Shown here: positions 29,226-33,834 of the stretch, piece after piece
Position numbering within the stretch: the first letter of the stretch is position 1
Layout of the letters: every line of letters starts with the position of its first letter
Source of the DNA: Devosia rhodophyticola
GTDB taxonomy: Bacteria > Pseudomonadota > Alphaproteobacteria > Rhizobiales > Devosiaceae
Length of the DNA stretch: 64,000 bases
NCBI RefSeq assembly: GCF_028816475.1
Contig: NZ_CP118247.1
Location: 1,364,001 to 1,428,000, forward strand
Direction: 5' to 3'
Notes under the pieces: generated by a model
Databases searched by the model: none
What the model saw: only the letters and a program-made list of their open reading frames with translations
Told to the model about the DNA's origin: nothing
Program-made: the position numbers and the translations under genes

Positions 29226-31649
29226 TCACGCCCGGAGCGTGCCGCCGGTTGATTTGGTCACGGCGCCAATGATGGCGGCGGAGACTTTTTCGATATCCTC
29301 GTCGGTCAAGGTCTTGTCCAGCGGCTGAAGCGTTACCTCGATGCCGACGGACTTCTTGCCTTCCCCGACATGAGCGCCTTCAAAGACGTCAAAGATACCA
29401 ACATCGCTGATCAGGTTTTTGTCGGCGCCCCTCGCGGCGCGCAAAATGACAGCGGCAGTGACGGCGCGATCGACCACAAAGGCGAAATCGCGACTGACGG
29501 GCATCAAGCCTGAGAGATTGAGCGCCGGCTTGGTTTTGGTCGGTTTTTTGCGCGGTTCGGGCAGCGCGTCGAGGTCGATTTCAAAGGCGGCGACCGGACC
29601 ATCGAGATCAAGTTCGGCGGCCCAGGCGGGGTGCAGTTCGCCGAACCAGCCGAGAATGAGCTTTGGCCCAAGTTGAATGCGACCGCCCCGGCCCGGATGG
29701 CTCCAGGGCGCCGGTTCGGCCACCACCTGCACCTTGTCGATATCAACGCCCAAGGCATCGAGCGCGGCGCCAATATCGGCCTTTGCGTCGAAAACGCCGA
29801 CCGGTGCGGCCTTGCCGGTCCAGTGGCGACCTGCGCCGGTCAGCCCGGCAGTGCCGGTGCGGATGCCGGTGGCGTAGGTGTGCTGGCCCTCGGGCGCGGA
29901 CGACAGGAAAATCTGACCCACTTCAAAGAAGCCCAGATCGGCAATGCCACGATTGGCATTGCGCTTGGCCGCCGACAGAAGGCCGGGCAACAATGAGGGA
30001 CGCATGTCGGTCATGTCGGCGGCAATGGCATTGGCCAGTTGCAACTCGTCCTGACCGCCGCCGAATTTTTCGGCCATCTCGTGATCGATAAAGCTCCAGG
30101 TGACCGCCTCGTCCAGCCCCCGCGACGCCAGGGCCCGGCGGGCAATGCGGCGACGGTTCTGGATGGTCGTCAACATGGGAGGGGCGACATGGGTGAGCCG
30201 CTCGAGTGGCTCGACCGGGACATTATCGACCCCGACCATGCGCATGATTTCTTCGGTCAGATCGGCCTTGAGGCTCACATCGGGCCGCCAGCTTGGCACC
30301 CTGATTGTGAGGGTGTCGCCCGTGGCTTCAATGGCGAAGCCCAAAGCTGTCAAAATGGCCTTGATCACCATGGGTTCAACGTCGAGCCCGGTCAGGCGTT
30401 TGACTTCGCTCAAGGGGAACTGGATGGTTGTATTGGCATACACATCCTCGCCCGAAATCACCGGCTCGCAGGGCTCGCCGCCACAAATCTGCATGACCAG
30501 CCGGGTGGCCAGTTCGAGGCCCGGTTCGGTCAGCGCCGGATCGACGCCGCGTTCCAGCCGATAGCGCGCATCCGAGACAATGCCCGTCGCCCGACCGGTG
30601 CGGGCAATAAGATCAGGGTCCCAGCTGGCGCATTCCATGAAGATATTGACGGTGCCCTCGGTGCAACTGGTGGGCACGCCTCCAAGGATGCCGCCGAGGC
30701 AGAGAGCGCCGCTATCGTCGGCAATGACGGTCATGGTTTCGTCGAGTTCGTGGCTTTTGCCATCGAGTCCTTCAAGGGTTTCGCCCGGCTTTGCGTTGCG
30801 CAAATAGGGCGCACCAGTGAATTTATCGGCATCATAGGCGTGCAAGGGGCGACCCCAGCCGAGCGAGACCAGATTGGTAATATCGGCCAAGGCATTGATG
30901 GGGCGGAGGCCAACGGCGCGCAGGCGCTGTTGCAGCCAGTCGGGCGATGGACCGTTCTTGACATTGCGGATCAGGCGACCGGCAAATTTGTGGATGGTTT
31001 TGGGCTCGTCGGCGGCAAATCGCTGCTCAAGCGCGCCAATCGGGCTGGGACCAACGGAAGGGACCGGCGACATGTCGGCGGGCTTTAGCGCGCCCAGCCC
31101 ATAGGCGGCCAGATCGCGGGCGATGCCATATACCCCGGTGGCGTCGCCGCGATTGGGGGTGATGGAAATATCAAAGGTGACGCCATCCAGTTTGGCGAAC
31201 TGATCGTAGGGCACGCCAACCGGCGCATCCTCCGGCAATTCAATGATGCCGTCGTGATCGCCCGACAGCTCCAGTTCGGCGCCCGAGCACAACATGCCAT
31301 TGCTGACCGCGCCGCGAATATTACCCTTGCCGATGGTCATGTCCTTGCCCGGAATATAGGTGCCGGGCGCGGCGAAGACGGTTTTCAGACCGGTGACGGC
31401 ATTGGGCGCGCCGCAGACCACATCGATCAACTCGCCAGTGCCAGCATCAACCTTGCAGACGCGCAATTTGTCGGCGTTGGGATGTTTTTCGGCCGACACG
31501 ACATGGGCGGTGACAAAATTCTTGAGCGCATCGCCCTCATGAATCACCTCTTCGACTTCCAGCCCGATCATGGTCAGGGTTTTGGCAATGTCGGCGACGC
31601 TGGCGTCTGTATCGAGATGCTCTTTGAGCCAATCAAGGGTGAATTTCAT
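29226..31649 (-). CDS. pheT: Phenylalanyl-tRNA synthetase beta subunit
   Basis: An 807-residue beta subunit of the alpha2-beta2 enzyme. The N-terminal tRNA-binding (EMAP-like) domain has VVSAEKHPNADKLRVCKVD. The B3/B4 editing domain, with GVTFDISITPNRGDATGVYGIARDLAAY, follows. B5 has FPLSEVKRLTGLDV, and the C-terminal FDX-ACB anticodon domain runs from PALNLSGLMPVSRDFAFVVD to the end. Length is normal. It is the last gene of a tight set: 12 bp separate it from the ASCH-exonuclease gene, itself 7 bp from pheS, so the three are almost certainly one transcript. Confidence 0.98.
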   Translation of the reverse strand: MKFTLDWLKEHLDTDASVADIAKTLTMIGLEVEEVIHEGDALKNFVTAHVVSAEKHPNADKLRVCKVDAGTGELIDVVCGAPNAVTGLKTVFAAPGTYIPGKDMTIGKGNIRGAVSNGMLCSGAELELSGDHDGIIELPEDAPVGVPYDQFAKLDGVTFDISITPNRGDATGVYGIARDLAAYGLGALKPADMSPVPSVGPSPIGALEQRFAADEPKTIHKFAGRLIRNVKNGPSPDWLQQRLRAVGLRPINALADITNLVSLGWGRPLHAYDADKFTGAPYLRNAKPGETLEGLDGKSHELDETMTVIADDSGALCLGGILGGVPTSCTEGTVNIFMECASWDPDLIARTGRATGIVSDARYRLERGVDPALTEPGLELATRLVMQICGGEPCEPVISGEDVYANTTIQFPLSEVKRLTGLDVEPMVIKAILTALGFAIEATGDTLTIRVPSWRPDVSLKADLTEEIMRMVGVDNVPVEPLERLTHVAPPMLTTIQNRRRIARRALASRGLDEAVTWSFIDHEMAEKFGGGQDELQLANAIAADMTDMRPSLLPGLLSAAKRNANRGIADLGFFEVGQIFLSSAPEGQHTYATGIRTGTAGLTGAGRHWTGKAAPVGVFDAKADIGAALDALGVDIDKVQVVAEPAPWSHPGRGGRIQLGPKLILGWFGELHPAWAAELDLDGPVAAFEIDLDALPEPRKKPTKTKPALNLSGLMPVSRDFAFVVDRAVTAAVILRAARGADKNLISDVGIFDVFEGAHVGEGKKSVGIEVTLQPLDKTLTDEDIEKVSAAIIGAVTKSTGGTLRA

Positions 31650-31661
31650 TGCTTTGGCACC

Positions 31662-32705
31662 TTACCGGAAATCGCTGGCTGACCCGGAAATCGCGGGCAG
31701 TTGGCGGGAAATCTTGAACAGTTCGACCAGCACATTGGCAAAGCCGCGCGCATCATCAATGGCGTTATGGGTGTGGGCGATATGGCCGTAAAACTCGGCG
31801 GGCAATTTGCTCATGCCCCAATCGAGATAGGGCGCGCCGCGCAGGGTGCCAGCCATGGTGTAAAGACACACACCGCCGCCCCTGAAAATCTGCCGTGTCT
31901 TGAACGGGCCGCTTAAAACCCGCGTGCCAGCATAGACATCCAGATAATGGTCCATCCACAGACCATCAAACATCATCGGCGCGGCGGCGAAAACCTTGGG
32001 GCCGGGCAGGCTATCGACCCAATCGGCAAAGCGCGGCATGACGATTTTCGGCGCCTCGGCATTTTCGGTCGCCGCCTTCCACGCCTCAGGCTGTGTCTGC
32101 CACCAGGCCATGGTGGTCGGGTCGGTGCCACGATCGGCGCGCGGCTGCAATTGCGCTTCAAATTCACCATGGCGCGTCCCGTCGGCTTCAATCGCCACCG
32201 AGGCGAAACTCAGCATCGAATGATGCAGGGGCGTTGGGCCATTGCTTTCAATATCGGTGACAATGAAGATGGGGCTGGCGACTTGGGCATAGAGCGCTCT
32301 TCCGGCTGGCAAGATTTCCACCAGTTTGAAGGTCTCGCAGACAATCTCCATATCGGAGGTGAAACCGCCATTGCGGGCGAAATAGGCCTCATGGCCAGCG
32401 CGCCATTGTGCATAGTCGCCTTCCCCTTCAAGATCGGAAAAGGTGGCGGTGATGGCGGCGAACGGCTTGATCTGGACCGAGACGGTTTCGATGCGGGCCG
32501 TAGCTTCACCGCGCCCGTTGAGCACGATATCGCGCCGTCCCACGACCGGCATCGGCTCGCCGTCAGCGCCAAAATCGCGCAGAGCGCCACAGGTCGCGGT
32601 TTTTTTGCCGGCCAATACCAGTGCGAGCAGCGAATCGGCCAGTGCCGGGCTGTCCCCAAAGCTGAACGCTATGTCGCCATCCACATTTGGCGTGGTTTGG
32701 GCCAT
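31662..32705 (-). CDS. ASCH domain fused to DEDDh 3'-5' exonuclease
   Basis: A 347-residue two-domain protein. Residues 10-133 are an ASCH domain with LVLAGKKTATCGALRDF, VGRRDIVLNGRGEATARIET, LEGEGDYAQWRAGHEAYF and EIVCETFKLVE. Residues 145-345 form a DnaQ-like exonuclease: FIVTDIESNG gives the D151/E153 pair, FDGLWMDHYL a probable second Asp, and HNAIDDARG (H313, D318) the third motif of the DEDDh class. ASCH domains bind RNA or act as amidohydrolases on modified nucleosides; DEDDh domains degrade RNA or DNA 3' ends. A fused RNA-processing or repair enzyme is plausible. It sits between pheS and pheT with 7 and 12 bp gaps, so it is expressed with them. Confidence 0.82.
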   Translation of the reverse strand: MAQTTPNVDGDIAFSFGDSPALADSLLALVLAGKKTATCGALRDFGADGEPMPVVGRRDIVLNGRGEATARIETVSVQIKPFAAITATFSDLEGEGDYAQWRAGHEAYFARNGGFTSDMEIVCETFKLVEILPAGRALYAQVASPIFIVTDIESNGPTPLHHSMLSFASVAIEADGTRHGEFEAQLQPRADRGTDPTTMAWWQTQPEAWKAATENAEAPKIVMPRFADWVDSLPGPKVFAAAPMMFDGLWMDHYLDVYAGTRVLSGPFKTRQIFRGGGVCLYTMAGTLRGAPYLDWGMSKLPAEFYGHIAHTHNAIDDARGFANVLVELFKISRQLPAISGSASDFR

Positions 32706-32712
32706 TAGCTAC

Positions 32713-33834
32713 TCAGCCCCCAAAAAGGGTTGGCAGGTCAAGTGGCCGGAACCCATAATGATCGAGCCAGCGCTTGTCGGCGTCAAAGAAGGCGCGCAGA
32801 TCCGGCATGCCATATTTGAGCATGGCGATGCGATCGATCCCCATGCCCCAGGCAAAGCCCTGATAGACGTCCGGGTCAAGGCCGGCCATGCGGATGACAT
32901 TTGGATGGACCATGCCGCAGCCGAGGATTTCGAGCCAGTCACTGCCCTGCCCGATCTTGACTTCCGAGCCTGAGCGGTCGCATTGCACATCGACTTCCAT
33001 CGAGGGTTCGGTGAAAGGGAAGAAGGACGGACGGAAGCGGGTTTTCACTTCGTCGACCTCGAAATAGGCCTTGAAGAATTCTTCCAGAACCCAGCGCAGC
33101 TGACCGATATGGCTGGATTTGTCGATCACCAGACCTTCGATCTGATGGAACATCGGCGTGTGGGTCTGGTCGCTGTCATTGCGATAGGTGCGGCCGGGAA
33201 TGACGACGCGAATGGGCGGGTCCATCGGCGGGGTCATATATCTGACTGCCGGTTTTTCATTGGCTTTCTGCATGACGCGGATCTGCACCGGCGAGGTGTG
33301 GGTGCGGAGCAGTTTCTTGACCCCGTCGGGTCCGGGCTTCATGAAAAACGTGTCGTGCATTTCCCGGGCGGGATGGCCTTCGGGGAAATTGAGCGCGGTG
33401 AAATTGAAATAGTCGGTTTCGATATCGGGGCCTTCGGCAATGGAAAAGCCCATGTCGGAGAAAATCGCGGTGATTTCATCGAGCGTCTGGCTGACCGGGT
33501 GGATGCGGCCCCGCGCGGTCGGCGCGGGCTGCAGCGGCAGGGTGATATCGACGGTTTCGGCGGCCAGCCGCGCTTCGAGCGCCTTGGCCTTGAGCTCAAC
33601 AAGGCGCTTTTCGATGAGGCCCGCGATTTCGCCCTTGAGCCCGTTAATCGCCGGTCCGGCGGTCTTGCGCTCTTCGGGGTCCATCTTGCCAAGGCCCGCC
33701 AAAAGCGCTGATACACTGCCCTTTTTGCCTAGACCCGACACGCGCACGCCATCAAGGCTGGCCTCATCGCTGCTATTGGCAATAGCGTGGGTCAGTTCGG
33801 CGCGCAAACTGTCAATCTGATCGTCTAGGGACAT
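32713..33834 (-). CDS. pheS: Phenylalanyl-tRNA synthetase alpha subunit
   Basis: A 373-residue alpha subunit. The N-terminal coiled coil (residues 1-90) binds tRNA. Class II motif 1 is around [19 protein letters not shown]. Motif 2 contains [24 protein letters not shown], motif 3 is [18 protein letters not shown] near the end. Together with pheT it charges tRNA-Phe. A terminator-like hairpin lies about 40-80 bases before the start, so expression may be attenuated or partly set by read-through from rpmI-rplT. Confidence 0.98.

Follow-up and report, generated by a model that had tools for sequence, protein, structure and literature searches.

A fused ASCH and DEDDh exonuclease gene between pheS and pheT of Devosia rhodophyticola: a possible accessory nuclease in an often occupied operon gap

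Background

Among solved structures, the closest relative of the exonuclease domain discussed here is Cap18 (PDB 7t2s), the predicted 3'-5' exonuclease of the E. coli upec-117 CBASS, which is the best match in both sequence and structure. Cap18 is an uncharacterised protein. In a report on this system, a catalytically dead mutant of Cap18 was still protective against phage (PMC9122588). RNase T, which has the same DEDDh fold, is described as a trimmer of small-RNA 3' ends (PMC11981726). For the ASCH domain, one point of comparison is YqfB, an N4-acetylcytidine amidohydrolase with the residues Lys21, Thr24 and Glu74 and an essential Arg26 (PMC6972931). Defence against T-even phages is reported for a 5hmC glycosylase whose fold, in a model, is ASCH-like (PMC13160076). 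The nearest ASCH structures are the DUF984-type proteins 1t62 and 3s9x, which are of unknown function.

The two domains are already known, and what is new is their architecture and their place. A literature search, for which subscription papers were mostly out of reach, returned no account of a protein joining ASCH to such an exonuclease domain or of the gap between pheS and pheT as an insertion site.

Gene organization

The sequence analysed (the window) is a 64-kb stretch of the D. rhodophyticola contig NZ_CP118247.1, and all positions given below refer to it. The gene order on the minus strand is rplT, pheS, a 347-aa fusion ORF and pheT. The rplT gene (L20; 33945..34349; PF00453, E-value: 3.4e-47) precedes pheS and is co-directional with it. 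PheS is encoded at 32713..33834 (PF01409, E-value: 1.9e-93) and PheT at 29226..31649 (PF03483, E-value: 1.3e-60; PF17759, E-value: 7.6e-47). Between them, the fusion ORF (31662..32705, minus strand) begins with an ATG codon and encodes an ASCH domain and a DEDDh exonuclease domain (EXO) in one chain. A 7 bp spacer (32706..32712) separates the pheS stop codon from this ATG, with a G-run (TTTGGGGGC) just upstream, inside pheS. The spacer between the fusion ORF and pheT is 12 bp (31650..31661), and here an AAGGTG resembling a ribosome-binding site overlaps the stop codon. The initial annotation had described two such domains in a single chain at these distances from pheS and pheT, and both the ORF coordinates and the Pfam matches agree with that description.

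The fusion ORF has a single matching place in its own genome, and the closest named relative found is the orthologue of Devosia algicola (locus L002; 94% identity). The predicted structure of the whole chain, based on an alignment of 51 window and locus sequences, has a mean pLDDT of 92.1. Across 10 sequence pairs, dN/dS was 0.065-0.32 for ASCH and 0.058-0.216 for EXO; purifying selection acts on both domains. Because the two are read in one open frame (≥346 aa) in 46 of the 74 pheT-bearing genomes of the window's genus, and because dN/dS is 0.06-0.32, the fusion is more than a chance event.

The ASCH domain

The ASCH domain (residues 24-130; 32316..32636, minus strand) is a PUA-like barrel of the DUF984 type. 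It belongs to the ASCH superfamily by its match to PF04266 (E-value: 1.1e-17; 65.1 bits against a cut-off of 21.2) and by Z scores of about 17 to ASCH structures. The only significant matches of the ASCH profile in the PDB are 3s9x (Z 17.4) and 1t62 (Z 16.9), with 31% identity. Both of these proteins are free-standing, whereas the ASCH domain of the window is fused to EXO. The fusion could reveal what role the mostly uncharacterised DUF984-type group has.

Two conserved elements are candidates for an active site. The first, K35-x-x-T38 (32592..32603, minus strand), supplies a putative catalytic lysine and threonine; K35 is present in 82/82 ASCH sequences and position 38 is T in 75/82 and S in 7/82. 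The second is E95 (32421..32423, minus strand), a putative catalytic glutamate that is likewise found in 82/82. K35, T38 and E95 may be the counterparts of YqfB Lys21, Thr24 and Glu74 (PMC6972931), a correspondence judged by eye from the Lys-x-x-Thr spacing and the conserved glutamate. By contrast, the oxyanion Arg26 of YqfB, two residues after the threonine, is without a conserved counterpart: position 40 is G, D, S, E, N, A or T, and never R, in 82 rows. YqfB-type amidohydrolase chemistry is therefore unsure for this domain. A search of the PDB with the ASCH profile did not recover YqfB.

The exonuclease domain

EXO spans residues 148-325 (31731..32264, minus strand). Its active site comprises motif I, D151-x-E153 (32247..32255); motif II, D247 (31965..31967); and motif III, H313 to D318 (31752..31769), all on the minus strand. 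Together these residues, four acidic ones plus the histidine of motif III, form a complete DnaQ-like DEDDh set, and each is invariant in 92/92 EXO sequences. D151/E153 and H313/D318 had been proposed as the activity residues from the outset, with the suggestion that poor conservation would speak against the assignment; all four are conserved, but that set was incomplete in leaving out the third aspartate, D247. The fold was confirmed on the predicted structure, with Z scores of 15-20 to RNase T, DnaQ, Orn and Cap18. Two residues past the catalytic glutamate, N155 (32241-32243) is an asparagine in the window and in D. algicola and an aspartate in 88/92 EXO sequences.

Cap18 matches the EXO family profile with an E-value of 3.1e-25 and the EXO structure with Z 19.9 (24% identity). 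It differs from the fusion in having no ASCH part and in lacking a match to the TMxWWxTQ segment of the EXO family. The direct neighbours of the fusion are pheS and pheT, and not a CD-NTase gene as would be expected of a CBASS accessory. A PADLOC exonuclease model labelled 'Effector' matches EXO (E-value: 4.3e-10), and PADLOC models gave 0 matches at 1e-3 in 10 chosen larger ORFs between 22.6 and 40.4 kb of the window. RNase T is the second-best fold (Z 18.6 over 183 residues, approximately 15% identity). It is not the nearest relative by sequence, as its profile E-value (2.9e-4) falls behind those of a PolC exonuclease (9.3e-5) and Cap18. The match of the fusion ORF to RNase_T (PF00929) is below the cut-off for that family, which has two matches in the genome: a strong one elsewhere and the fusion ORF.

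EXO also matches the Rv2179c-like exoribonucleases (PF16473; E-value: 2.7e-6), with 13 of 14 members matching at 1e-3. The full chain passes narrowly, by 0.6 bits (27.6 against a cut-off of 27), and the domain alone scores 29.8; the reverse-order fusion described below scores just under the cut-off (26.6). The Mycobacterium tuberculosis structure 4hec, an uncharacterised protein in its PDB entry and presumably Rv2179c itself, aligns with EXO at Z 15.2 and 12% identity. Members of this group differ from the window gene in the ASCH fusion and in the operon place.

The EXO frame is broken in a few Devosia genomes (loci L043 and L045, including Candidatus Devosia symbiotica, and, by coordinates, genomes G061 and G081), and named and unnamed entries among these may represent one and the same assembly. 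Since pheT is interrupted as well in L043, the break there could be a sequencing error.

Distribution in the family

A survey of 136 genomes of the family gave matches to EXO in 96, to ASCH in 72 and to pheT in 132. A domain was counted as at the site if its coordinates placed it on the same strand and no more than 5 kb upstream of pheT. By this measure EXO is at the site in 94 of the 96 genomes that match it, and ASCH in 70 of 72. The exceptions are two genomes with a weak EXO match elsewhere (G049 and G016), one with a partial ASCH at the edge of a contig (G064) and one whose ASCH is not on the contig of pheT (G006). In 87/94 genomes no more than 40 bp lie between the EXO end and pheT; in the remaining seven (six with the reverse-order fusion, and G104) the distance is 397-428 bp. 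In all, EXO is next to pheT in 94/132 pheT-bearing genomes and 12/16 genera.

Presence is patchy. The 132 pheT-bearing genomes divide into 63 with both domains, 31 with EXO alone, 7 with ASCH alone and 31 with neither, a few of these last being fragmentary drafts. Even within the window's genus, neither domain is at the site in 11/74 pheT-bearing genomes. In 10 of these 11, pheS and pheT are just 25-79 bp apart, and in the eleventh the gap holds DUF4160 and DUF2442 genes. The gene is thus not present in close relatives wherever the PheRS pathway is. One locus (L069) carries, between pheS and pheT, ASCH and a pair of EXO copies from different lineages, together with other ORFs.

Fusion orders and phylogeny

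The two domains are joined in two orders. The ASCH-EXO order is that of the 46 genomes already mentioned. The reverse order, EXO-ASCH, forms one ORF of 338-398 aa in 6/6 genomes of another genus (Pfam scan on one of the six), where the ORF start overlaps the pheS end. In other genera ASCH and EXO are separate neighbouring genes (e.g. L072 and L074). A single-sequence model of the reverse-order fusion was uninformative (mean pLDDT 33.9). One apparent fusion from outside the family, a class-level row (G537) whose match seemed to span both domains, was discarded when its locus was found to hold ASCH alone.

In the EXO tree, all 64 pheT-linked rows group together in a single clade that excludes the EXOs located elsewhere (95* after removal of eight long rows; 83, unstarred, with all rows). 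One EXO labelled 'elsewhere' in this tree (L026) is in fact pheT-linked, its contig beginning inside the gene. In the ASCH tree, the fused ASCH-EXO rows and one ASCH-alone row form one clade (98* after removal of six rows, five distant and one duplicate); the ASCH-alone row, L077, lies within the fused group as if its EXO had been lost. The first ASCH tree grouped the ASCHs of the reverse-order fusion with those that another family carries downstream of pheT (86). This suggested that ASCH might have arrived at the site more than once, but neither a single clade of both fused groups (p 0.415) nor one uniting the 46 ASCH rows of the family (p 0.114) was rejected.

On a pheS tree of 132 rows, picked partly for carrying EXO or ASCH, there are 18 EXO changes and 29 ASCH changes. 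Correlated gain and loss of the two domains on this tree was not significant in either direction (independent pairs 2.2 vs 1.0, median p 1; in the reverse test 1.9 vs 0.4, median p 0.625).

The pheS-pheT gap

A census of the gap was drawn from the order search, using the best approximately 150 places each for pheS and pheT, so that nearer relatives are over-represented. The two match lists have 129 genomes in common, 119 of them outside the family; pheS and pheT are unlinked in 11 of these and linked in 108. Among these 108 linked pairs, as far as the matches listed go, the gap is <100 bp in 53, 100-250 bp in 11 and ≥250 bp in 44. Only 10 of the 44 long gaps in the matches listed hold EXO or ASCH, and 34 hold neither.

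Sequences were examined for 26 of these 34. A Pfam scan of 37 other gap ORFs, from the family and from outside it, matched 24 to unrelated families: DUF559 (7), DUF2442 and/or DUF4160 (7), BrnA antitoxin (2) and, once each, CAP12/Pycsar TIR, GIY-YIG, YetF, histidine phosphatase, GFA, DUF6173, DUF922 and cation efflux. For the TIR gene there is a PADLOC match as well (PDC-S35). Some gaps, such as that of L109, are without a clear gene.

The initial annotation had read the tight linkage as a sign of a role in tRNA-Phe metabolism or translation, had proposed a survey of pheS-pheT operons for the gene, and had named its absence from close relatives as a finding that would count against the idea. 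The position next to pheT did prove persistent where EXO occurs. The gene is nonetheless absent, often cleanly, from close relatives in the family and in the genus alike, and outside the family most of the long gaps among the matches listed hold neither domain. Since the gap often holds unrelated genes, the tight spacing of the fusion to its two neighbours says little in favour of a tRNA-Phe function. More telling are the long persistence of EXO beside pheT in this family and the joining of the same pair of domains in both orders. If it is often loaded in this way, an essential synthetase operon would be a natural landing site for genes, and such a hotspot is a warning that closeness in an operon need not mean membership of a pathway.

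Distribution outside the family

The order survey (249 genomes) gave 22 genomes matching EXO and 34 matching ASCH. Within the order and outside the family, EXO adjoins pheT in at least 2/15 genomes; for six weak matches (E-value: 9.7e-9 or worse) the place of pheT is absent among the matches listed, and G171 is without a pheT match. ASCH lies beside pheT in at least 13/28, again among the matches listed and with the pheT place missing for G246. Eight of these listed ASCHs are upstream in the gap (four families) and five are downstream (one genus). The latter genus, of another family, carries ASCH approximately 90-105 bp downstream of pheT and hence outside the gap (L087, L088 and L101, with G347 and G280 by coordinates).

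A class survey of 385 genomes gave 38 that match EXO or ASCH, the window's own included. In the 20 of the 37 other loci that were examined, no pheS, pheT or partner domain was found in the surrounding stretch examined (tblastn, 1e-3). The same holds for pheS and pheT at 14/14 EXO loci from other phyla and classes (L048-L062 without L056).

Proposed function and alternatives

The proposed model, to which we give slightly less than even credence, is as follows. The fusion is an accessory 3'-5' exonuclease, probably active. Its ASCH half either binds a modified base or hydrolyses one, and the gene sits in a hotspot for cargo, where it is expressed together with the housekeeping operon. The DEDDh domain would strip nucleotides from the 3' ends of single-stranded RNA or DNA, as its fold and invariant residues suggest. 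ASCH would either hold the substrate by a modified base or hydrolyse a base or nucleoside that carries an acyl group or another modification, and the pair could then complete the breakdown of 3' ends bearing modified nucleotides. Expression would presumably occur through co-transcription with the pheS-pheT operon, which would explain the tight spacing. Retention of both domains and their joining in two orders suggest that ASCH and EXO work together; against this, adjacent co-directional genes can fuse without shared function. The accessory part of the model is opposed by the persistence of EXO next to pheT across 12 genera and by the single pheT-linked clade, which appear to exceed what casual cargo would show. 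A bolder version is doubtful: that in the Hyphomicrobiales this gap serves as a hotspot, so far unrecognised, where single-gene nucleases and toxin-antitoxin-like cargo lodge within an essential operon, and that the fusion is a new modified-base-dependent 3'-5' exonuclease, for defence or clean-up, assembled there in both orders. The two-order fusion offers a clean test of whether ASCH can guide a 3'-5' exonuclease or finish what it begins.

The same persistence beside pheT, shared by EXO and ASCH in the family, could instead reflect a link with translation. The fusion would then trim or edit tRNA 3' ends, those of tRNA-Phe especially, or deacylate aminoacyl or modified tRNA, hence its place in pheST. 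Five other families also have ASCH next to pheT, one of them on its far side, and this would fit such a role, as would the RNase T fold, given the small-RNA trimming described for that enzyme (PMC11981726). This reading is nevertheless quite improbable in view of the 31/132 family genomes with neither domain at the site, the many unrelated genes that occupy the gap, the 20 class-level loci with no pheS or pheT in the stretch and the finding of no tRNA gene in the 64-kb window. Anti-phage defence is also unlikely. In this reading ASCH would recognise modified bases and direct the exonuclease to them, within a hotspot of defence and toxin-antitoxin genes. It is favoured by Cap18 being the nearest solved relative of EXO, by the match to the 'Effector' model, by the patchy presence on the pheS tree and by other gap cargo (TIR, BrnA and DUF4160/DUF2442). 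Defence genes less typically show a low dN/dS or stay at one site for long, and EXO does both. The PADLOC scan of 10 ORFs around the locus gave no match at 1e-3. The ASCH-like 5hmC glycosylase is a precedent for such a role (PMC13160076), but the loss of Cap18 catalysis did not lower protection in its own system (PMC9122588).

A neutral fusion is possible too: two unrelated accessory genes in one hotspot may have been joined by loss of a stop codon, with the domains acting independently. Separate adjacent genes in L072 and L074, the genomes with one domain alone (ASCH in 7/132, EXO in 31/132) and the apparent EXO loss in L077 are all compatible with this. The existence of both orders, each maintained over several species, and the invariant active sites of both domains make it improbable.

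Free-standing relatives

Distant relatives of EXO (27-29% identity) are encoded by the very large rhizobial phages Sinorhizobium phage Phosso (H1) and Agrobacterium phage Atu_ph07 (H6). Matches from Klebsiella and E. coli plasmids that seemed to run into the start of EXO were rejected as candidates, the one examined (H23) being a 139-aa ASCH protein. The gene directly behind a free-standing EXO encodes a NUDIX protein in 3/5 loci scanned (L052, L053 and the Paenarthrobacter plasmid locus L124, but not L050 or L059), possibly indicating a nucleotide-cleaning neighbourhood. In L052, and likewise in L057, the gene immediately upstream of EXO encodes an rRNA adenine dimethylase (KsgA/Erm-type).
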